Assembly (NCBI GenBank): GCA_036940085.1
Contig: JALLBK010000260.1
Location: 1 to 59,493, forward strand
DNA length: 59,493 nucleotides
Direction of reading: 5' to 3'
Source: Discostella pseudostelligera
Taxonomy: Eukaryota; Bacillariophyta; Thalassiosirophyceae; Thalassiosirales; Thalassiosiraceae
Part shown: in pieces, positions 477-57,697 of the stretch
Layout: each line of letters begins with the position of its first letter
Numbering within the stretch: position 1 is the first letter of the stretch
Made by a program: the position numbers and the translations under genes
Notes under the pieces: generated by a model
Seen by the model: only the letters and a program-made list of their open reading frames with translations
What the model was told of the DNA's origin: nothing
Database searches by the model: none

Positions 477-2268
477 ATGCGTCCACCATCCCAATCATGC
501 CCCATAGCTAGAAGACGACGGGTCCGTTCCGTCGCCGGCATCTTTCTATGTGCCATAACCTACGCCGCCCTCTGGGACATTGATGACTCCGGTGTATTAA
601 TTGCCCGACAGTGGTGGTTCCAACCGCGACGACACTTGGCCTACCTCGATTCCAATCCAGTCAGGGCCGTGCCATTTGAAAAGGATGAAATCAATCCCAA
701 TTATCAATCATTTTTAAAGCCATCGGAAATTGATGGTATGATGTTCCTTCGTAATCGCAAGTTGGGTCAGCCGCAACAATTGATGGAAGACGGGGGTGAA
801 AATGAGGGGGGAGAACTACCAAGTACAAGTCCCTCCGTGCTCTCATCTTCGTGTGATAACATCTTCCTCTTCATGCCCCAAAGCTTTGCCCATCATGGTC
901 ATGGCTCCCAATTAAATAATTACATCCTAGCCTCTCTAATTGCATCGCACACCAACCGCGACATGCNATGGTCATGGCTCCCAATTAAATAATTACATCC
1001 TAGCCTCTCTAATTGCATCGCACACCAACCGCGACATGCTGCTGCTTGAACCACCCCGCGAAAGTAACGAGTACGAATCCAATTCCCAATTCGGCTGTCC
1101 ACTCGAGGCATGGCAAACCAAGGAAGCAGTACTCAATGGTGCCAAACCAAAGAAAATTGGGTGGAATGATGATTTTCCAAATGGATTAAGTAGATTAATT
1201 AAGCATCCTTCGTGGTTATCTCGGGAATGCGCCTTACCGTGTCAAGACACAATGAGCTACGAGGATTGGGATGAATTGCGATTGGCACACCGGGATGATA
1301 CCACACCCTTCGAGTTTCAATGTAATAGCGACATAGGTGATCAACCAACCAATGTAATCGTCATGGGAGGACGGGAGATACGAGACTACTTCATATCTTA
1401 CTATCGGGATCAAATGATAAATCGGGATCAGAGCAGCAATCCTACATCCACATCTTCCGCTGAACAATGGGCAACGCGCGTTGGTGCTACATCCGACGAG
1501 GCACATGTCTTCGCCAACCTCTTGACCGATCGACAAGACATTTGGGATTTCATAGCCGCCATCATGGCCCGGTCCGGCCTACTCCGCTTTCAACCATGGA
1601 TTGCCCGGGATGTCGAACGATATATGCAAGAGATGGTAGACTTGCCATTGAATGTTCCCTATGATGCTATCCATGTCCGTCGAGGAGATAAGGTGACAAC
1701 GGATTCGAGACGTCTTGTTGTCAACTTCTGGCAAAGTTTAGGCCAGTATGATGAAGAGACGGGGAGTATGCCTAAAGATTACATCCCCTTTCGACATTAT
1801 TTGAGTCAATTCGAGGAGTCGGTGACATGCAGTCCCACTCCACGAATTGTGTACGTTGCCACCGATGATGTCATTGAGGTACAGAATGAGGTTAATGACT
1901 TACCGAAGGATTCAGATGGGAATACTGTACTCATCTATGAGGATGGTGAGCAATCTTGTCACAAGTTTCGTTTCGTCTTTAGCCGTGTCGATCCTACTTT
2001 AGGACTGCACATTAACACTGGTCCAATCAAGGGTGATTGCGAGGAAAGATACGCTCGTAACATCGCCAGTATTGCCGACATCTTGATATTAGCCAAGAGT
2101 AATGTGTATGTGGGAGAATACAATTCGAATTGGGGAAGGTTGATACGGATGTTTCGATTACGAATCAGTGGTAGGAATGAGATTGAGAATGGTGCAAGAC
2201 CGGTAACACAGCGGGGTCAAATGCTAATTGCGTTTGGTAGGAAACGTCCTGGCCCACCCGGTTGGTAA
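477..2268 (+). CDS. Fucosyltransferase-like (GT23-type) type II membrane protein, interrupted by an assembly artefact
   Basis: The protein has a basic N-terminus (MRPPSQSCPIARRRRVRS), then one hydrophobic segment, as in a Golgi type II glycosyltransferase. The catalytic part holds an HVRRGDK motif (about 1669-1691), matching the HVRR(T/G)DK donor-binding motif of alpha-1,6-fucosyltransferases. Near the C-terminus is a YVGEYNSNWGRLIRMFR segment. Expected role, from the family: transfer of fucose from GDP-fucose to N-glycans in the Golgi. The frame is broken at one N (967) flanked by identical 72-nt copies (895-966 and 968-1039). Removing 73 nt leaves 1,719 nt, a clean 572-codon frame plus stop, so the break is an assembly fault and not a pseudogene. 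Exact acceptor specificity cannot be told; GT-B fucosyltransferase is likely, FUT8-type less sure. Confidence 0.65.
895..1039. other. Contig-join artefact: N flanked by 72-nt duplicate
   Basis: Positions 895-966 and 968-1039 are identical, separated by the single N at 967. The same structure, with the same 72-nt length, recurs at 40590-40734. This is best explained by two overlapping contig ends placed side by side rather than merged. Confidence 0.9.
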
Positions 2269-16874: not shown

Positions 16875-18691
16875 ATGAAGATGATGAAGCCCTCCGCAAA
16901 CTACAACTACTCCCTTGCCCTTGCCCTTGCCCTTGCAATCCTCCACTGTTGCACCGGAACGGCAGCTCAGCACGTCGTCTTTGATGGCGGCGATGAAGTT
17001 GTTCCTACTGCGCTACAGCTTCTTCGTGGTGGTGTCGGGGTCCACGATGTCCTCTCCACCTCCACCTCCACAAAAGCGGTGGAGGAGCACAACGAATCCA
17101 CCACAAAACAGACTACTAAGAAGGTTCAGACTTTCAACCTAAAAGAGAACATTACACTCACTCTCTCGAGTGCTGAAGTGGATAAGAATTTTTGTGATCC
17201 ATCCTCTCCATTGAGCTTGGCGGGGTACATGAATGGTGAGATCGATGACAGTAGCAAGCATTTCTTTACCTAGATCAATTATTCTCAACGTTTACATCAT
17301 CGATTATTTCTCTAAGTGAAAGGAAGTCAGTTTGATACCGAGAATGACAAAAATCTTTTCTACTGGTTCTTTGAGCAGAGAACGACAAGTCAACTTCCCG
17401 GAGGATTCGACGTCGGTGGGCCTGGGAAGGGGAAAAGGTCGAATGGAGAGACAATCCCGCTAGTTATCTGGTTGACGGGTGGACCTGGATGTTCAAGTTC
17501 ACTTGCTCTCCTTACCGAGAATGGACCGTGTAAAGTCAATAAGGATGGAGCTACAACGAATGTTAATCCGTACTCATGGACTGAGGCTGCTCACGTCCTT
17601 TGGCTGGACCAGCCTGCCAATGTAGGCGAGTAGTCATCTCCGCAATCTCGCGTGATTCATTCACATTATTTTGTCTAATTGCAGCATTCTTTCATACTTT
17701 CGTCTCTTTTCTGGTGTTCACAGGTTACTCCTACGGACAGAATAATGACATGAACGAAGAGATGATTAGCGAGGATGCCTACTACTTTTTGCAAGCGTGG
17801 TTTAAGTCCGAATATGGTCGTAAGTACAAAGATGCACCCCTATTCATTGTCGGTGAAAGTTATGGAGGACATTATGCCCCCGCTATCGCGCATAGGATAT
17901 GGACGGGGAACAACAACCTAAAGGACGGACTTGATAAGCTCAATCTGCGAGGATTGGCAGTTGGCAATGGATTGACACAACCCGAGGAGCAGTTCAAATG
18001 GTACGCGGAAATGGCGTATAAGAATTCGCACAACATGCCGGTAATCTCCGAAGAGACCTATTATGAATGGAAAGCAGCCGAGCAAAAGTGTGTCACAAGC
18101 TTACATCAATGCAACCAAAGCGATGACGCACATTCGGCGTTTGCTTGCAATGTTGGAAACCTACTCTGCGGAGCCATTATGAAGGATTATACGAAGTTGG
18201 GTTTGAACCCTTACGACATATCCAAGTTGTGCGATGACCATCCCTTGTGCTATGACTTCTCAAACGTAGAGAAATTTATGAACAATGAAACGACTAAAAG
18301 AGCCTTGCATGTTGATGGACACAATCCGACATGGGAAACTTGTAACGATGCTTTGAATAATCGTTTTACCGTTGACAAAATGAAGAACTTTGGCCCGTAC
18401 GTTGCGGATTTACTCAACAATGGCATACCTGCATTAATATACGCTGGAGACTTGGACTTCATTTGCAACTACCTTGGTAATCAAGCCTGGAGTTACAAAC
18501 TTGATTGGAAGCATACGGAGAATTTCCAGGCAGCCGAGTTGAAAGATTGGAATAATGGAGGAGGGTTGGTGAGGACATCAAATGGATTGACGTTCTTACA
18601 AGTGTTCGATGCTGGACATATGGTGCCGAGCGATCAGCCAGAGCATGCATTACAAATGATCACTCTGTTCTTGACTGGAGAATCATTTTGA
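16875..18691 (+). CDS. Serine carboxypeptidase (peptidase S10), three exons, one GC-AG intron
   Basis: Exons are 16875-17235, 17317-17625 and 17724-18691, giving 545 residues. A signal peptide (LALALALAILHCCTGTAA) sends it to the secretory/vacuolar route. Family signatures: FYWFFEQR, LTGGPGCSS (oxyanion hole), LWLDQPANVGYSYG, GESYGGHYAP, YAGDLDFICNY and DAGHMVPSDQP. The catalytic triad is Ser269, Asp466 and His522. Intron 1 is GT-AG (81 nt). Intron 2 (98 nt) begins GCGAGT and ends CACAG; only this GC-AG choice restores the invariant QPANVGYSYG segment. The enzyme removes C-terminal residues at acidic pH. It is divergent from IRE1. Confidence 0.93.
17626..17723 (+). other. GC-AG intron in carboxypeptidase gene
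   Basis: The donor reads G|GCGAGT and the acceptor CACAG|GTT. A GT donor 4 nt upstream would shift the frame and destroy the conserved QPANVGYSYG motif. A second acceptor (TTGCAG) leads to an early stop. Confidence 0.8.
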
Positions 18692-19133
18692 AATCATCCA
18701 TCTCATGCAGCATTTGTAATCATGAGGGTTGCCTTTGTCGTCGTCGACGTCGTGGCTCGTCGATGATGGTGGGAAATGAGCTAATGAAAAAAACTCCTCG
18801 TCCTCATTACAATCGCCCATGTCTAAGTATTATTCTTAGTTAAGTCGAGGACTAGTAGGTAGTAATAGGAGGCACGGAATTACTACGTATTACTTCTTGT
18901 ACTACTCGTCAACTTGATGCACACAAATTTAGTCCTCCTCGTTCTCGTCTTCATCCTCGTCCTCATCTTCGTCTTCATCCTCGTCCTCGACCTCTTCGCT
19001 CTTGACCTCAACCCTCTTGCCATTTCCACCAAGACGCCTGTCATCTTCATCTTCATCCTCGACTTCATCCTCGTCCTCATCTTCGACTTCATCCTCGTCC
19101 TCATCTTCGTCCTCGACCTCTTCGCTCTTGACC
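18692..19133. repeat. 3' spacer and out-of-frame continuation of the acidic repeat array
   Basis: Positions 18929-19133 continue the RRL/acidic repeats of the minus-strand gene beyond its premature stop, in the next frame. They end in a natural-looking stop (complement of 18929-18931) after N-E-E-D. Positions 18692-18928 hold nothing recognisable. Confidence 0.7.
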
Positions 19134-19616
19134 TCAACCCTCTTGCCATTTCACATTTCCGCCAAGACGCCTGTCATCTTCATCTTCATCCTCGACTTCA
19201 TTTTCATCTTCATCCTCGACTTCATCCTCGTCCTCATCTTCGACTTCATCCTCATCCTCATCTTCGTCCTCGACCTCTTCGCTCTTGACCTCAACCCTCT
19301 TGCCATTTCCGCCAAGACGCCTGTCATCTTCATCTTCATCCTCGACTTCATTTTCATCCTCATCTTCATCCTCGTCCTCATCCTCGTCCTCATCTTCGTC
19401 CTCGACCTCTACGACTTCAACCGTCTTGCCGTTTCTACCAAGACGCCTGTCATCTTTAACAAGGAGTTCAAGCTGTTCTTGATCTACCCCAACGATGCTG
19501 ACAGCAGCGTTGCTGTCTCCACGAAGGTGTCTAGTAGTGGCCGCAACGGCGGTGTTCGAGCCATGGAGACTGGCGCTCAGGAGGATGGAAAGGAGGATGC
19601 TGCGAGAAAAGATCAT
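19134..19616 (-). CDS. Secreted acidic tandem-repeat protein with RRL motifs (silacidin-like), C-terminally truncated by frameshift
   Basis: A 160-residue protein from the methionine at 19616; an in-frame ATG at 19682 would give 182. Residues 1-27 form a signal peptide (SILLSILLSASLHGSNTAVA), followed by an RHLRG motif. Then come repeats of DDRRLG(R/G)NGK plus a long Asp/Glu run with interspersed Val. In the silacidin family of diatoms, acidic peptides are released from a precursor at RRL sites and end up in silica. The layout here is alike, though Ser is sparse. A 7-nt insertion (copy at about 19144-19172 against the copy at about 19298) shifts the frame and adds a short KWQEG end. Without it the frame would run exactly to the stop at 18929. 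Silica role is inference; a calcium-binding secreted acidic protein is the alternative. Confidence 0.65.
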   Translation of the reverse strand: MIFSRSILLSILLSASLHGSNTAVAATTRHLRGDSNAAVSIVGVDQEQLELLVKDDRRLGRNGKTVEVVEVEDEDEDEDEDEDEDEDENEVEDEDEDDRRLGGNGKRVEVKSEEVEDEDEDEDEVEDEDEDEVEDEDENEVEDEDEDDRRLGGNVKWQEG

Positions 19617-20526
19617 GATGGTAGGAAATAGTAATAAGAGTGATATTTTGGAAGAACTCGATTGTCGAGGGGGTGACAACAATAATTTTATGACATGCCG
19701 GAGACCTCCTCTGGAGGACAGGGTGCTTCATAGTCGCTGCGACTTTTGGCGCAAGATCGGTTTTTTTCATTGATATTCGAGCCATCGTTCGGGTTGCTGC
19801 CATTTGAGGTCATTTTCTCATGATTTTCACTGTTCTTCATCATTTTGTTCACGAACTCGCCACGAACGAGGATGTGATGAGTGAGAGAGCGAGACTCCCG
19901 ACTGGGACTGGGACACAACAATAATTTTATGACATGCCGGAGACCTCCTCTAGACAGGGAGCTTCGTAGTCGCTGCGACGATCGGTTTTCTCGCCACGAA
20001 CGAGGAGAGACTCCCGACTGGGACTGGGACAGCAGATCATTCCTCGTGATGTATGTAGGAGTACTCCTATTAATTAAGTATCGTACTTACATTGTCCGCT
20101 GTCTGGTGAGCGGCTTTCGCGGGTGCGAAAATTCTCTAGAGAGAGAGAGGAAAACCGTCATCCAAGAATACACTTTCCCGCCAAATTATGCCTCATCCTC
20201 TTTCCGCCAAAATGCGGACTTCGCCTTCCAGGTTCTCGTTTCTCGAATTTGAATTTCCTGTGTTCTCCTCAAGTTCGGTTGTGTGGAATTTTTGAATTAC
20301 GACTATGGAATCAATACATACTTCGAGAAGCCAAGAATCACCCGTTATTGATGCCAACAACACCCTCTCCACTCTCCAACTCCTTCTCCAGGGAGCCGCA
20401 AAAAAGACAGCAACCATGATGGCCGCGCGGAGCCCTATGCACGGTATCGTAGCCCTCTACCTAATGTGAGCCTCAAATAAACCCCCAAAATCAACGCGTG
20501 CTATCCCAAAGAAGTTGAATGTTGAA
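19617..20526. promoter_or_regulatory. Divergent spacer with duplicated A-B-A-B blocks and E2F-like sites
   Basis: This lies between the acidic-repeat gene (-) and the giant coiled-coil gene (+). Block A (19678-19743 and 19914-19979) and block B (19858-19914 and 19991-20031) each occur twice. TTTCCCGCCAAATT (about 20174) and TTTCCGCCAAAATG (about 20201) are E2F-like. A short ATG frame at 20417 does not splice in frame into the downstream gene. No gene is supported. Confidence 0.5.
19678..20031. repeat. Imperfect duplicated block, order A-B-A'-B'
   Basis: A and A' share ACAACAATAATTTTATGACA and the following approximately 45 nt (CCGGAGACCTCCTCT, TAGTCGCTGCGAC) with small indels. B and B' share CGCCACGAACGAGGA and GACTCCCGACTGGGACTGGG; B' lacks about 15 internal nt. 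A tandem duplication of about 235 bp followed by deletion explains this. Confidence 0.8.
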
Positions 20527-23500
20527 ATGGAAAATCAATCTCTTGCAAGGAGGGACGACGACGAGTGCATCGACTCTGCGTCATCGCACGATAATAATTT
20601 CATCGCCACCGTTGCCCTGCCATCGTCGTCGCCATGGGGCAAATCAATTCATGACACTCAGTCATTTCCGCCAACAATCTCTCCTGATAATGACAATCGA
20701 CAAAGACCTCACAACAACATGCATACGATGACGCGCAATTGCAGCCCAGAGTCATGCGAGAAGAGCAATATCGATGAGAAGTTCGACAGTGATGTCTTGC
20801 CCATGACCACAGCGATAACATCACCAAGTCAGCGACAACAACATAGGCGGCAAAAACAACCACAGATTACCACGACAATGACCACTTCAATGGCTCCCAT
20901 GATGGTAACACCCGATGCCAATGCTGCAGCCAAATGTGCTGCCGCTTTCACCACCAGTACCACCAGCACTGCCAGCGTCGCACGACGAATGCCTAGCATA
21001 ATAATTGTATCGCCACCTCCACCACTACAATATGCCTACCAAACTCCACAAAAGCCAGCACCCCTACCCTCCACATCATTCTCATCATCGCTATCGCCAA
21101 GCACCGGTGTCACGCCCTTTCTCAATAATGCAGCAACAGCAACGAGTAGTAGTAATGCCCACCATCGTGTACCATCTTACTCACCAATCACTCCCAACAC
21201 ATTAGCCTACATGAAATCAACCTCGCCCTTTCGCTCTTACATGCAATTTTTAGATGAGAAATTACACAGTGTGACAAAATTGGATGCGGAATTGCATAAT
21301 AGGATTCATGATTTTGAGGAGCACTACTATCATGAAGCATCAGTGGATGCAGCGGGAAATTATGACGACGATGAGGGCAATGGCGACAATATCTCATCAC
21401 CTACGCCTTCTTGTATGGCTACGCAGAGGATGTTGAATGAAACACACTACTACTCTACACGAACTTCGACTACAGCTTGTCCACGAACTGTTCTGCAATT
21501 TCATACACCCAATTCTGCCAATTCTAGAGGTCGCAGTGTTTGCAGAAAATCGCATGCTGCCAATTTTGGAGATAGAAGTGGCAATGGAGGTGGCGGTACT
21601 GGTGACGGTCGTCGTCGTATGCAGCCATATTCAGATTCATTTATACGACGACGTGCTAATGATGGAATTATGACACAAACAAATCGCAATCGTCATCGTC
21701 GGAGTGCATCCTACGATGATTGTGGCACTAAAATGGAAGCACAGCAACAACGACATGAAAAGTTGGTGGGTTTCTTTCTCGATGGCAATGCAACTGTTCC
21801 ACTAGAACAACAGCAACAACAAGAGCTAGAGCATCACAACACACCTCTGTCCATGGATGATACATTTGTCAGCAGTGTCGATAGTTCACCAGTAGATTTT
21901 CGTAGAGTGTTATGGAAAGAAGGCGAGGCATCACCACCACCACCATCACCACCATGCAATGACGAAGCATCCGACCAATCCGAATCAGAAGATGACAACA
22001 ACACTCCACAGTTGGAAGCATCGCATTGTAAAGAAATACAACGTATACGAGTGCACATGACCGAACTTGAATCATTACTGAATGAAATGGAGTCATCATC
22101 ATCGTCATTGCTTGACTTGAAAGAACAGGTGCAGCAGGAAGTGTCAACGTTCAAGCCTTCGGTGGCAGTACAACAGTTGAGAGATGCGGATCATGATGCA
22201 GATCTTGATGTGTTGGCGGACGACAGTGTCGATCAAAGTACATGCGATGAACATGTCTGTTGCTCTGAAAGCAGTGATTATGAGGAGAGTGACGAGGGGG
22301 GTCAAGAGCAACACCAACAACAAGTAGATGTGACGAATGATTCCCACAACTCGATGTCGTTTTACATTGGCGAAGAAGAGGGATTTGCCATGTTTGAGAG
22401 TATTGAAGAGAGTGACATTAGTGAGACGGATGTGAGTGGCGAAGATGAATCGTACGAGAGTTTCACGGTAGATGAGAATGATGATGTCGCAGTAGAGAAC
22501 GATGTAGAAAGCAAGAGTAAGTGTGAGGATACAACTACGAAACTGTCACAGTGTGAAAATTTGCAGTGTTTAGAGCTTCGATCGAAGCTTCAATTATCCA
22601 ATGAAGGGAATGAGCGGATGCAACGTGAATTGGAGCGGCTCAAAGCGACCCAATGCGAACAAACCAATCAGCTAATCGAACAACACAGAGATGATTTAGA
22701 ACGTCTACGTGCAGAAATGGCATCGTCGGCGTCATCCGCGTTATATATTGAGCTTACCAAGAATGATGCGCTGAAAGATGAGCTAGCTACCGGCAACGAT
22801 CTGAACCGAAAGATGGTAGTTCAACATGAGATTATGCAGTTAGAATACTCTGCAGAAATATCATCCCTGCGAAGGAACAAGCTCGAGGTTGAAGCTCAAG
22901 TACATTCACTACAGACGAAGATGGAGGAGATGATACGTTACTACCTCGACGAAACAAGCAATTTGAAGGCATCGTTTGATGAAGAGCGCACTGCGCTATT
23001 GTCTGAGCATGAGTCAGTTGTCCGATCAATGGCGAAAGACTTCGAGAGCATACTTGCTGACAAAAACTGTGAGTTGGAGGATGTTGAACGATTGCATCGC
23101 GAATCGACTGAAGAGAATGCCACAAAATTATCCCAACTTGCAAGTCAACTGGAACATGCAATTGCATCGAATAATCAGCTTGAGGAACACAACCAAGTAT
23201 TATCGCGAGATATTGATGAAGTGAACACCAAACTTGCTTCCATCACATGTGAAAAGGACGACCTTGCTAACAACCTTGCAAATTCTGACGCAGACATCGA
23301 GACCCTGTCGCTGCAACTGTTTCAATGTGAAGAGGAGAAAGGAGCAATCGATCATCAACTCGGAGCCGTCCGTACAGAACGAGATGATTTGTTGGTCCAA
23401 TTTGCCAGTTTGAAGGACTCGTTAGAAGAAGCCACGGTAGGGAAGTCGGCCATCGTTGTCTCTCTGAATGATGCAATACTCGAAATCTCACGCCAAAATG

Positions 23501-26500
23501 ATCTCATCACTGCAATGGAGACGGAACGAATGTCGCTATCGCGTCGAATCACGGTGTTGGAGGAAAAATTAGCCTCCGTGAACGCCAACCTTGCTTCCAT
23601 CACAAGTGAAAAGGACGACCTTGCTAGGAACCTTGCCAATGCTCATGCAGACATCGAGACCCTGTCGCTGCAACTGATTCAATGTGAAGAGGAGAAAGGA
23701 GCAATCGAACAACAACTTGATGATGTCCGTGTAGAGCGAAATGAGTTAGTAGTCCAAGTTGCGAGATTGAAGGACTCGCTGGAAGAAGCCATGGTAGGGA
23801 AGTGGGCCATGACAGCCTCACTGAATGATGCAACATGCGAAATCTCCCGCCAAAGTGATCTCATCACTGCAATGGAGACGGACCGAATATCGCTATCCAA
23901 TCGAATCACAGAGTTGAACGAACAAGTAGACTCTCAAATCATGCTACTCAAATCAACCCAAAAAGAATACGAGAGCACGATGCATGAGAAAGACCGCCAG
24001 CTAGACGGTCTCGCAACCCAATTTCGCGGTAAATCGGCAGAGCATGTCGTAGAAATATCTCAACTTGAATGTCAATTGACAAGTGCAATCGAGGCAAAAG
24101 AGAAGATGGAAGTTCAACTTGATGCTGCCAGTTCTGAGCTGAGTGATTCGTTAGGCCACGTTGCGAGATTGAAGGACTCGCTTGATGAATCTGTCGCAGA
24201 AAAGAACACCATCAAAGTCGACCTAGACGATGCAAGGCGTGAGGTCGAATGTCAAATAGATCGCATCGGTGCCTTAGAATCAGAACAATTATCTCAATTG
24301 AATCAAATGAGGGAATTGGAGCAACAGATGACCCCCAACGATGCACTTCTCAAATCGATTCAGGACGACTTTGATAGCAAGGTGGAGGAGAAAGACAAGG
24401 AGTTAGACAAGGTCGCACACCAGCTTCGCACCGTTGCCGCAGAGCATGCTGCACAAGTATCGCAGTTTAAAGGTCAACTTAAGAGTGCAGTAAGCGAACG
24501 AGGGCTGCTTGAGGAGCGAAACCAAATGCTCACGAGAGATCTCGACGACACTAACACCAAACTCGCTGCCATAACCTGCCACCATGACTGCCTTGCTCTT
24601 GATCTCTCTGCTTCTCAAGCCGACAACGAGGCTATATCATTGCAATTGAAGCAAAGTGAGAATTTTCGGGCAGACATCGATCAAAAAATTGCGACTATCT
24701 GTATAGAGCGTGATGATTTGGTTGTCCAGGTTGCCAGCTTGAAGAACTCGCTAGATGAAGCCATCGTAGAGAAATCGGCCACCGAAGCTTCTCTGAATGA
24801 TGCAACACACGAAATCACATGCCAAAAGAATCACATCGCTGCAATGGAGGTGGAGCATACATCCCAATCTAATCAAGTGAGAGAATTGGATCAGCAGATT
24901 GCCTATCTCAATGCACAACTCAAATCAATTCAGGATGACTTCGAGGGTACATTGCATGAGAAAGTCCGGGATCTAGACGAGGTTGCGCACCAGCTTCAAA
25001 CAAATACCGAGATGCATGCCACACAAGTATCGCAACTTGAGAGTAAACTGACAAGCGCAATCCAAGCAAAAGAGTTGATTGAAGCGCACAACCAAATGTT
25101 GATGGAAGATCTTGACGTGACGAACAGCCGACTTTCCACCATATCTGTTGAAAAGGATGAGCTTGCTGCCAACTTTGCTACTTCTCAAGCAGCTAACGCG
25201 ACACTTTCGTTGCAGGTGACGCGCTTTAAGAATGACAACGCAGTCATCAAGCAGCAACTTGCTACTGTCCGTGCAGAGCGTGGCGATTTGAAGGGCTCGC
25301 TCGATGAGGCATCCATAGAAAACGAGAGCTTGCGCATATCCCTGACAGATGCTAGACAGCAGATTGAATGCCGCAATGACCGCATTTCGGCTATGGAGAC
25401 TGAACAAACATCGCTTTTGAATCAAATCGCGGAGTTTCAGCAACAATTAGCCTCCCAACAAGGCATTAACGAGAGCCTGAGAAACGAAACGGTTGACCAA
25501 GCAAATAAGTTGATATCCCTTCACGAGAACATAGTCAACATGCAAAGCTCGATCGCTTCCAAGGACACACGATTGGCGGAGCTATCGGCTTCAAATGACG
25601 ACCTCGTGAACAAATATCTGCAGCTGGTGAAGGAGAATGAAGTTGATATCTCGGAGAAGAATTGCCTCATTATTGAACAATCCTTCAGAATATCGTCAGA
25701 GACAGAACGCAAGGAGGAGCACCAGGCGTCATGTGAGGTAAACGAGATGAAAAATCTATTGAGCTCAGCAGCGTCAGAGAGTCACTCGAGAACGGACTTG
25801 CCAATCGATGATCGTCCACAGACTGGACTTCGCTTTAATCGAATTCAGGAGCTGGACCATATTTTAGCCTCAATGAACAGTGACTCGCAAGCCTTGCTAG
25901 ACAAAGTGGATCACTTTCAAGGGCTCGCTGCCAAACTTGCTGTATCTGTGCTGAAGCTGAAGCTCCAGGGTAATGATAACTATGATCAGATGATGATAGA
26001 AAAGGCCAGTTTTAATGACCAGTTTCTAGCGTTAAGCGAGAAGGGAACCGAGCTTCGATGGCTCTATGCGAAAGTGATGGACAAAACCGGAGTGATTTTT
26101 GACCTCAGGCAGGAAAACGATCAATTGATGAAGGAAAATATGAGGATGTTGAGCGAGTACCAATCGAAAGCGGCAGCACTAGAGGTGGATCGTACTCTGA
26201 TGGAACAACTGCAATCGGAAAACCAATCGCTCAAGGAAATAAGCTCAGATCTACTGACCGAAAGAGAGGCATCATCGAAACTCAGAAGCCAATTAATGCG
26301 TACCGAAGTCTCTTTGTCGGAGCTTCGGGCTGCAATGCTTAATACAGACAATAGCCTCGAGGAAGTGCGGCAAGATAGGAATCGTCTGTCTCATGAAGTC
26401 GACAGGTTGCATGTTAGCATAGATGCACTCGAAAAGGAGAAGAGATCTTTTTCTGGTTGCCTGCACGAATACAAAGGGAAGATTGCCCAGTTATCGAATA

Positions 26501-27327
26501 GGGTGACCTCGATGGAAAATTATGCAACATCAAACTCAATGCAAATTCACGAACTCGAATCTAAGTTGGTATCGAAGATGAACAAAGCAAATATGCCGAT
26601 CAACAAAGCATCTCAGGATAATATGCGAAGCCTAGTGCCATCAGTTGACATTCAAGAAGCAAATGTGGATGTGGCAATAACATCTTTGCGCGACAGTATC
26701 GATGCTTTCATACAGGAGTTTGATCATATCGTCTTGCAACTTGATGTGTCCGAGAATGATCGAAATGTACTACGTGATGACAGCGTTGCGGTCACAGATT
26801 CAACCACTCCAATGGAATCGGAACCATCTTTAACCGAGGACCACATCGAACCGAAGGAATCTAAAGGATTCATGTCAGAGGAAGACTTGGACCGTATTCG
26901 CACTTTTATGGCCAAAGCACAACAAATAACCGCCGACAGCGAACGGGAAAGAAACATGCTTAAAATGGAAGTCAAGCGACTGCGAGATGACCTAGAACGA
27001 GCTGAGGAAGAGTTAGCGTTGGCGAGGGAAGATTTATTGACCATAAACCGCATGCGAAATGCCGTCAGCCAATCAAAGGCGCTACTTGAAAAGTCCGAAC
27101 GAGAAAAGAACCAACTCAAAATGGAGAACGAATCCATCAAATCTTTCATGTCGGCGAGTATGGAAACAACCGCCAGCAGCAGCAATCATAGGCAGAGCGT
27201 CGTTTCACAAGTTTCGTCCACGGAGAGATTCAAGGTCGAGAAAGGACAATCCATGTTCGATATGCTAAAGGGCACGAAGAAATCGGGAAGGAAAGACTTT
27301 GTGAAATATCGAAGAGCCGAAGAGTAA
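20527..27327 (+). CDS. Giant coiled-coil protein (2,266 residues)
   Basis: A single long exon; I choose the ATG at 20527, since the frame further upstream only offers TTG. Residues 1-500 are disordered and rich in Ser, Pro and Asn. Residues 500-690 are acidic. From about 700 to 2,240 the protein is an almost unbroken coiled coil with regular heptads, as in golgin, centrosomal or cytoskeletal linker proteins. No motor, FHA, GRIP or membrane domain is visible. Within the coil an internal unit of 119 residues (17 heptads) is tandemly repeated at 23221-23577 and 23578-23930, with older decayed copies near 24540 and 25130. The C-terminus is short and basic (GTKKSGRKDFVKYRRAEE). Function is unknown; a scaffold or tether is likely. 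Confidence 0.8.
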   Translation: MENQSLARRDDDECIDSASSHDNNFIATVALPSSSPWGKSIHDTQSFPPTISPDNDNRQRPHNNMHTMTRNCSPESCEKSNIDEKFDSDVLPMTTAITSPSQRQQHRRQKQPQITTTMTTSMAPMMVTPDANAAAKCAAAFTTSTTSTASVARRMPSIIIVSPPPPLQYAYQTPQKPAPLPSTSFSSSLSPSTGVTPFLNNAATATSSSNAHHRVPSYSPITPNTLAYMKSTSPFRSYMQFLDEKLHSVTKLDAELHNRIHDFEEHYYHEASVDAAGNYDDDEGNGDNISSPTPSCMATQRMLNETHYYSTRTSTTACPRTVLQFHTPNSANSRGRSVCRKSHAANFGDRSGNGGGGTGDGRRRMQPYSDSFIRRRANDGIMTQTNRNRHRRSASYDDCGTKMEAQQQRHEKLVGFFLDGNATVPLEQQQQQELEHHNTPLSMDDTFVSSVDSSPVDFRRVLWKEGEASPPPPSPPCNDEASDQSESEDDNNTPQLEASHCKEIQRIRVHMTELESLLNEMESSSSSLLDLKEQVQQEVSTFKPSVAVQQLRDADHDADLDVLADDSVDQSTCDEHVCCSESSDYEESDEGGQEQHQQQVDVTNDSHNSMSFYIGEEEGFAMFESIEESDISETDVSGEDESYESFTVDENDDVAVENDVESKSKCEDTTTKLSQCENLQCLELRSKLQLSNEGNERMQRELERLKATQCEQTNQLIEQHRDDLERLRAEMASSASSALYIELTKNDALKDELATGNDLNRKMVVQHEIMQLEYSAEISSLRRNKLEVEAQVHSLQTKMEEMIRYYLDETSNLKASFDEERTALLSEHESVVRSMAKDFESILADKNCELEDVERLHRESTEENATKLSQLASQLEHAIASNNQLEEHNQVLSRDIDEVNTKLASITCEKDDLANNLANSDADIETLSLQLFQCEEEKGAIDHQLGAVRTERDDLLVQFASLKDSLEEATVGKSAIVVSLNDAILEISRQNDLITAMETERMSLSRRITVLEEKLASVNANLASITSEKDDLARNLANAHADIETLSLQLIQCEEEKGAIEQQLDDVRVERNELVVQVARLKDSLEEAMVGKWAMTASLNDATCEISRQSDLITAMETDRISLSNRITELNEQVDSQIMLLKSTQKEYESTMHEKDRQLDGLATQFRGKSAEHVVEISQLECQLTSAIEAKEKMEVQLDAASSELSDSLGHVARLKDSLDESVAEKNTIKVDLDDARREVECQIDRIGALESEQLSQLNQMRELEQQMTPNDALLKSIQDDFDSKVEEKDKELDKVAHQLRTVAAEHAAQVSQFKGQLKSAVSERGLLEERNQMLTRDLDDTNTKLAAITCHHDCLALDLSASQADNEAISLQLKQSENFRADIDQKIATICIERDDLVVQVASLKNSLDEAIVEKSATEASLNDATHEITCQKNHIAAMEVEHTSQSNQVRELDQQIAYLNAQLKSIQDDFEGTLHEKVRDLDEVAHQLQTNTEMHATQVSQLESKLTSAIQAKELIEAHNQMLMEDLDVTNSRLSTISVEKDELAANFATSQAANATLSLQVTRFKNDNAVIKQQLATVRAERGDLKGSLDEASIENESLRISLTDARQQIECRNDRISAMETEQTSLLNQIAEFQQQLASQQGINESLRNETVDQANKLISLHENIVNMQSSIASKDTRLAELSASNDDLVNKYLQLVKENEVDISEKNCLIIEQSFRISSETERKEEHQASCEVNEMKNLLSSAASESHSRTDLPIDDRPQTGLRFNRIQELDHILASMNSDSQALLDKVDHFQGLAAKLAVSVLKLKLQGNDNYDQMMIEKASFNDQFLALSEKGTELRWLYAKVMDKTGVIFDLRQENDQLMKENMRMLSEYQSKAAALEVDRTLMEQLQSENQSLKEISSDLLTEREASSKLRSQLMRTEVSLSELRAAMLNTDNSLEEVRQDRNRLSHEVDRLHVSIDALEKEKRSFSGCLHEYKGKIAQLSNRVTSMENYATSNSMQIHELESKLVSKMNKANMPINKASQDNMRSLVPSVDIQEANVDVAITSLRDSIDAFIQEFDHIVLQLDVSENDRNVLRDDSVAVTDSTTPMESEPSLTEDHIEPKESKGFMSEEDLDRIRTFMAKAQQITADSERERNMLKMEVKRLRDDLERAEEELALAREDLLTINRMRNAVSQSKALLEKSEREKNQLKMENESIKSFMSASMETTASSSNHRQSVVSQVSSTERFKVEKGQSMFDMLKGTKKSGRKDFVKYRRAEE
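23221..23930 (+). repeat. Internal coding tandem duplication, 357-nt unit
   Basis: Two near-identical copies start at 23221 and 23578. Several matching anchors all give an offset of exactly 357 nt, which is 119 codons or 17 heptads, so the coiled-coil register is kept. Confidence 0.9.
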
Positions 27328-39104: not shown

Positions 39105-40981
39105 GCTATTATGCCATTGGCGTTGTTCTCTCTCCCTACAAGCACCACATCCCGATTCACCTCCTCAGCTGCACCCCTTTCCACTTGTCCTTCATTGGCA
39201 TTTACCGCCACCACCTCTTCCTGCTCTTCTTCTTCTTCTTCTTCTTCTTTCGGTCCCACCCATGCCCTCCACACATCCTCCCGTTCCAACCACAACACCT
39301 TGTACAGGAAGGATATTATCCCCGCCTGCATCATGTACCCAATCAATGATGCTATTATCAACAAATGCCTTTTATGACCATGCCAATATCCAATAATCCA
39401 TTGCAATAGGGAATACAAGTCTGTTGGAAATACGGCATTGTCGTCTCCTGCTCCTGCTGCCTCGGCCGCTCCATCCTGTCCTCCACCAGCAGCACCGCCA
39501 CCGCCACCGCCACCAGCAGCACCCCGGCCATTCCTCCGATTATTTCTATCTCCCATACCACTATTTCCCCTTCCCGTAAAAATTAGCAACATGATCAACA
39601 ACTTCATTAATGAACCAAGATCGAGATTGTCCAGTACACGTAATTCCACAGCACGTTGACGTATGTGGACGTAGACACGTCCCGGTCCAGTCGACTGCAG
39701 TACTGTTCGCAATCGACGGGGTAGGGAGAATAGAAACTGGAAGAAACTGACAAAGAGTGGGAAGAAGATTCCGCGTGGATGTTGGTGTAGATGATGATGG
39801 AGGAGGTTCAGTAGTGGATTGGCGTTATGTTCGGCTGGCACCCCAACGGCAGCTTGATTGGGCGGTGGTGGTGCCGCTGCTGCTCCCACCCCTCCTCCTC
39901 CTTGCTGTGGTTGTTGTTGACGTTGAGGTGGCGGTGGTCCACCCATGCCAAACATCTGCCGTAATCGTTCTTCCATCTGCGGATGTTCTTGTTGCACATT
40001 CTGCTGATGCCCCTGCCCCTGCGGATTCTGTCGTGAATTATTGCACAAGTATCGAACATCCGCTTCCATCCTTGCCATCATACTCCCCATGACATCAAGA
40101 CGGATTTGCAGTTCGTGCATTTGACGTTGTTGATTCTCGATAATGGTCAGGAGTAGACGTTGATTTTGCTGTTGCTGGCCAGTGGAGATTGGTGGATCCG
40201 AGGATGACGATGGTGCTGCTTCTAATTCTAACGACGACCATTGCAACCTTTGTTCACGGATGGATGCTGTTATTTCATCATAAAATTCTTCATCATTCAT
40301 CTGTAATGACAACGGTTCCAAATCATCCTCGGGCATATCATCATCCAAATCTTCATATCCTGGATATTTTATATTGGCACCAAGTTTGTGAATTCTTTTA
40401 CTTTTCTTGTCGGTGCTGCTGGATTTGCTCTTATTGTCTGATGCTGCTGCTACTGCGGTGGTGGCGGCCAAGTCAAGCGACGTTGCAGCAGATATAGTGC
40501 TGGCAGGAGGGACGGGGGTCAATAGAGTGCTACCTGATCCACCCCCTGCACCTGCCCCTGCTGATGCAAGAGTCTTTAGAAATTCCAGACTGGATGGATC
40601 AATATCTTGAATCCAACAGGTGGGCGGCAACAATGGAAGAAGTACTGACGACGATGATGATNCTGGATGGATCAATATCTTGAATCCAACAGGTGGGCGG
40701 CAACAATGGAAGAAGTACTGACGACGATGATGATTGCTGCCAATATTGGGAGAGGTAGTCGATCAATATTTGATCATCTTTGTTGATGTCCTCGTCTCCT
40801 TTAATATTCTTGACAGTGGTGGTGCTGGTGCTGGTAGGGGTGTGAGTGGTGGAAGCTGCCACTGCAGCAGCAGCAGTAGTAGTAGTCGCAGAAGATAGCG
40901 AAGGCATTAGGTTGCCTTCCCCCTCGTTCAAAAGACCAATGTACCCCTCCTCCTCCTCATCTATCAACTTCGTCGTCGCCG

Positions 40982-57696: not shown

Positions 57697-57697
57697 N
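57697..57697. other. Single-N assembly gap
   Basis: Unlike the other two Ns in the window, its flanks are not duplicated. It is therefore a real gap or an uncalled base rather than an unmerged overlap. Confidence 0.8.

Follow-up and report, generated by a model that had tools for sequence, protein, structure and literature searches.

A minus-strand gene at 18929..19616 of the window (the whole 59,493-nt stretch of Discostella pseudostelligera DNA analysed here) may encode a secreted pre-pro-protein, which would be cleaved at R-X-L sites into serine-poor polyanionic peptides acting much as silacidin does, and we hold this best explanation with moderate confidence. The precursor would lose its signal peptide in the ER and then be cleaved at the R-X-L sites by a diatom RXL endoprotease, and the products, disordered polyanions about 33-50 residues long, would move towards the silica deposition vesicle or the cell wall. 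These peptides may aid silica precipitation by pairing with polycations, be they long-chain polyamines or silaffin-like ones, Asp/Glu taking the part that phosphoserine has in silacidin; the role in silica is thus suggested by analogy. The secretory-precursor reading is supported by the positions of the R-X-L sites and by block net charges of -18 to -27 past the first RRL. Against it count that no homologue was found, that unit 1 of the repeat carries amino-acid changes and that the only copy seen is frame-broken.

The plausible start of the acidic-array gene is ATG 19616, on the minus strand, and not TTG 19682. The assembled frame (19134..19616, minus) ends past a 7-nt insertion at the stop 19134-19136 and gives 160 aa from ATG 19616 or 182 aa from TTG 19682. 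The frame without the 7 nt (18929..19616, minus) reads through to the stop at 18929-18931, giving 226 aa from ATG 19616 and, by arithmetic, 248 from TTG 19682. The preliminary description had reported the same two stops and 248 codons from 19682, and these were reproduced; it is the TTG start that gives way to the ATG.

From this ATG, residues 1-25 (19542..19616, minus) resemble a signal peptide on visual inspection, as had been proposed, with a hydrophobic core (mean Kyte-Doolittle 2.36 across the best 10 residues) and an A-X-A motif, so that the N-terminal signal peptide of silacidins has its counterpart here. The first R-X-L is RHL at residues 29-31 (19524..19532, minus), and the propeptide-like stretch of residues 32-59 (19440..19523, minus) closes with DDRRL, its RRL being residues 57-59; the signal peptide and RXL-ended propeptide of RXL precursors in general are therefore both present in the layout. 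Four acidic blocks follow on the same strand: block 1 (residues 60-101, 19314..19439, net charge -23) and block 2 (residues 102-151, 19164..19313, net charge -27) both close with DDRRL, block 3 (19031..19163, net charge -21) closes likewise and is interrupted in the assembly, and the C-terminal block 4 (18932..19030, net charge -18) ends with ENEED. The assembled frame terminates inside block 3, and blocks 1 and 2 would remain encoded. There are five R-X-L sites in all, RHL and four RRL, each RRL written DDRRL, and a hypothetical cut after each of them would yield pieces of 31, 28, 42, 50, 42 and 33 residues. Beyond position 25, in the reading without the 7 nt, Asp/Glu make up 112 of 201 residues and Ser only 5, which bears out the rarity of Ser remarked on earlier (0, 1, 1 and 1 Ser in blocks 1-4). 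The RHLRG motif singled out in the preliminary description is present in the N-terminal region but is not enriched in the genome, where the degenerate pattern gave 110 matches against 136 for the reversed control; among the first 30 loci, 15 truly read RHLRG and one had a signal-like ATG upstream. Only the R-X-L is therefore informative, and not the five-letter motif.

The strand and frame of the array were assessed from the acidic runs. Ten runs of at least 4 codons in the minus frame, comprising 90 codons and spanning both sides of the break, keep an E-D alternation throughout save for the closing DD of DDRRL, and their third positions vary between A and G or between C and T. Because a plus-strand Ser frame would not require this alternation, the minus acidic frame is favoured, and the pattern offers moderate evidence for the strand and frame. 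However, the alternation may have come from hexanucleotide expansion and the repeat copies are not independent; the short acidic stretches SEEV and NEED do not alternate. A Ser-rich plus-strand frame with PRRLSSSS does exist and was rejected, as it has no signal-like start. Another minus frame of the array holds Met/Arg/Lys-rich ORFs of 88 aa (18883-19149) and 80 aa (19151-19393), which are a by-product of (GAN)n coding.

The tandem DDRRLG(R/G)NGK blocks with Asp/Glu runs were recovered as four units, in which DDRRLG begins at 19454, 19328, 19178 and 19045 and each block opens with G(R/G)NGK(T/R)VEV before its acidic runs. The spacing between units is 126, 150 and 133 nt, the third alone not being a multiple of three. 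Unit 2 differs from unit 4 over the first 60 nt by one synonymous third-position change, and so does unit 3 from unit 2 over the 60 nt past the insertion; the differences between units 1 and 2 extend to first and second codon positions and alter amino acids. In the reading without the 7 nt, GKR occurs in three of the four units and unit 1 has GKT. The longest exact repeat within the array is 55 nt. Since the unit lengths, apart from the 7 nt, vary by multiples of three, slippage is plausible, and the array probably expands and contracts through tandem duplication. The earlier idea of a slipping, length-variable locus is plausible to this extent, from the one copy seen.

The interruption of block 3 is an imperfect microduplication, CATTTC-A-CATTTC on the plus strand at 19147-19159, found just as previously described; the exact place of the 7 nt (minus-strand gene) is ambiguous. 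There are 25 positions from 19159 to 19134 at which omitting 7 nt reopens the frame to 18929-18931, and 19 at which deleting a single nt does the same, but when aligned with units 2 and 4 the sequence proves to be 7 nt too long, not 1. After the break, 71 residues are still open in the acidic frame, and because a single synonymous change separates the sequence there from unit 2 in the 60 nt compared, the break would be recent or artificial. Splicing around the break, though conceivable, was not supported by the pairs listed. GT-AG pairs of 40-500 nt that yield more than 170 aa numbered 149, and the 12 listed all share the donor GTGAAA at 19154; the highest pyrimidine count among these 12, 10 of 15, precedes the acceptor at 18781, whose use removes the remaining acidic blocks, and the other 11 have 4-6 pyrimidines in the 15 nt before the acceptor.

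It is possible, and we entertain it tentatively, that the 7 nt are a sequence or assembly error in an intact gene, a reading compatible with the other explanations. Join errors that break ORFs do occur in this assembly. Across 347,927 letters of assembly stretches, with overlapping stretches counted repeatedly, 5 of 8 distinct N sites consist of a single N flanked by exact 72-nt direct duplicates, namely 967 and 40662 in the window and three more in L025, L034 and L054; the window's remaining N, at 57697, lacks duplicated flanks. The N at 967 (window 895-1039) and the N at 40662 (window 40590-40734) each split one long ORF; with one 72-nt copy dropped, the ORF from 477 has 572 codons and the one from 41177 has 755. 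At the N at 967, the downstream piece, ORF 940-2268, matches O-fucosyltransferase. The pattern suggests a systematic join artefact, in which contigs from short reads were put end to end with their overlaps left unmerged. Nevertheless, there is no N at 19147-19159 or anywhere in the array and no exact repeat above 55 nt, and this type of error does not therefore explain the 7 nt. Frameshifts also have a precedent, being reported for the silacidin homologues of two freshwater Cyclotella in a study that obtained silacidin sequences from 12 of 18 centric cultures (PMC5649158).

The array is the sole place found in the assembly with the DDRRLG unit or the N-terminus of its protein, and the N-terminal 71 residues had no match beyond their own locus in the 23-Mb assembly. 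A search with the 1921-nt stretch 18600-20520 returned 10 rows, one of them the stretch itself and the rest lying in the acidic repeat. Among the seven loci opened (L020-L026), none was accepted as a paralogue: L020, L022, L024 and L025 have acidic runs inside other ORFs, L021 has poly-Asp, L023 has no ORF of 80 aa within the stretch and L026 has a Ser-rich ORF on the opposite strand. Simple acidic DNA repeats thus occur elsewhere, within or across ordinary ORFs, and in L022 a hydrophobic stretch precedes the acidic run. An acidic run with RRL was matched 8 times against 3 for the reversed control. This array accounts for three of the 8, and L017 reads SSL; by eye the ORFs holding L011 and L018 lack a signal-like start, and at L012 and L013 no such frame of 80 aa was seen; these four were rejected. 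The silacidin-type motif S-E-D-S-x-S-E, drawn from PMC12533330, gave 42 scattered matches against 18 reversed, and 8 of the 30 loci read hold it with S or T, one with an internal stop. None lies within an ORF above 0.30 S+D+E, a result that covers 30 of the 42 matches and does not imply that silacidin is absent from the genome. As a separate observation, the Ser-rich ORF of L026 (G000:C827, + strand, about 1100-1840) has a signal-like start, an RDL motif and a long run of Ser, with a hydrophobic segment close to its C-terminus, a layout that by eye resembles the silicalemma-associated proteins (SAPs) described in PMC5647440.

Beyond the assembly, residues 1-72 had no homologue at E<=10 among 561 scored protein candidates, nor residues 86-128 at E<=1 among 3991. 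The protein set contains MMETSP, EukProt and NCBI Thalassiosirales proteins, and its search requires shared five-residue words and similar length, so that diverged relatives could escape; the locus's own product was not returned. In Pfam the best match of the assembled 160 aa lay under its cut-off (E 0.015), and an exact-pattern scan of viral_contigs found no copy of the array pattern. The papers searched contained no use of the term "silacidin-like", and nothing on diatom peptide precursors among the matches listed.

The secreted RXL precursor has to be weighed against other explanations of the gene. We regard it as rather unlikely that the product is a secreted acidic protein with another job, as a Ca2+/metal or polycation buffer or a surface coat, with RRL merely a part of the repeat. 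Its Asp/Glu composition alone could bind cations uncut. GPIHBP1 binds a basic partner through a disordered run of Asp/Glu, and it was through this run that GPIHBP1 gave both of the weak matches among solved structures, neither of them significant (E 0.24 and 0.25), a likeness of composition only. But neither the 160-aa nor the 226-aa reading ends with a KDEL-type signal, and RRL closes blocks 1-3 and the propeptide-like stretch, as in published RXL precursors (PMC4557024). That the array is an orphan ORF of low complexity which is in decay or never had a function, with the insertion as a loss-of-function change, would agree with the broken frame, with the lack of relatives among the 561 and 3991 candidates and with the comparable simple-repeat DNA elsewhere; we consider it clearly unlikely, since a signal-like start and R-X-L layout precede the repeat and the well-kept 71 residues past the break point to a recent event.

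Yeast alpha-factor and animal neuropeptide precursors carry active peptides parted by spacers, and by the same design short DDRRLGGNGKR units would be active here and the acidic runs would be spacers. The GKR of three units, the acidic spacers and an adjoining carboxypeptidase gene would suit such a signalling-peptide precursor, which is nonetheless very improbable: unit 1 has GKT, three other S10 loci are present in the genome, and the larger carboxypeptidase exon is closer to carboxypeptidase Y (E 2.3e-52), its closest solved structure, than to Kex1 (E 9.6e-18). The profile of the amidating-enzyme family, PF01082, matched nowhere, which is no sign of absence. The adjoining gene is a convergent serine carboxypeptidase (Peptidase_S10) in two exon pieces at 17316..18691 on the plus strand, with no demonstrated link to the array gene; that it might trim the C-terminal RRL of the peptides is an idea only. 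Sequence evidence agrees with a diatom of or near Thalassiosirales: three loci of the genome hold the 5 pieces matched by PF03842 (silicon transporter; best E 8.1e-224), and a neighbouring ELP3 has a 100% match in a JGI record and, among the best 120 of 3665 matches, shares 88-90% identity with named proteins of Skeletonema, Thalassiosira and Mediolabrus, two of these species being Thalassiosirales. Upstream of the array gene lie duplicated segments, 19671-19743 and 19910-19979, 93% identical in both matched parts and 236-239 nt apart, and a 25-nt sequence occurs identically at 19891 and 20007. A 357-nt tandem repeat of 1.9 copies (23221-23916) lies inside the long ORF 20515-27327.

Silaffins are rich in Lys and Ser, a character that the array protein does not have. 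RXL sites are known so far only from biosilica-associated proteins according to PMC5647440, which describes RXL processing as still to be proven. Sin1 has a signal peptide and then 30 residues closing with RRL (PMC5525289), and the array protein, with its signal-like start, about 30 residues and RRL, is built like the silaffin, cingulin and Sin1-type precursors; it has none of the NQ-rich, Cys-containing and membrane-anchored features given for Sin1 in the same source. Protein 1401909 of Entomoneis vertebralis is likewise repetitive and was likened to silacidin without sequence similarity (PMC12533330), but its repeat is Ser-rich, the opposite of the Ser-poor array blocks.

There is also a likeness to the Thalassiosira pseudonana silacidins, in which a repetitive secreted precursor with RXL at the repeat ends gives very acidic short products; silacidins and silaffins are both described as having RXL at the C-terminus of repeats (PMC4557024). 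RXL-ended repeats flanking acidic peptides are found here in the sequence layout, with the cleavage itself predicted. Silacidins, however, have many Ser, which are phosphorylated, and phosphorylation is reported as essential for activity (PMC4557024); the array protein has 3 Ser in 167 acidic-block residues. No silacidin homology was detected by a general protein search, silacidins being otherwise compared by description. Because the layout matches and the Ser is missing, the gene is proposed to work like a silacidin precursor and is not filed as a silacidin; of the silacidin-like character first ascribed to it, the secretory-looking start and the RXL at block ends stand, and silacidin membership does not.

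Silaffins and silacidins are stated not to be conserved even inside one genus (PMC12533330), whereas PMC5649158 reports the contrary for silacidin, with conservation among centrics and homologues 80-100% identical to that of T. pseudonana in the other centrics amplified. A more far-reaching and doubtful proposal is that the array encodes a silacidin analogue of independent origin that requires no phosphorylation, made of nearly Ser-free Glu-Asp copolymers which, once released at the RXL sites, would act as the polyanion in diatom silica formation, and whose block number would change via slippage or even frameshift alleles (two- and four-block forms). If the protein is silica-associated, this would suggest that lineages arrive again at one polyanion design by way of unrelated simple repeats, in line with the statement of PMC12533330, and the array would separate the RXL release of repeated polyanions from Ser phosphorylation, two properties that are confounded in silacidin.
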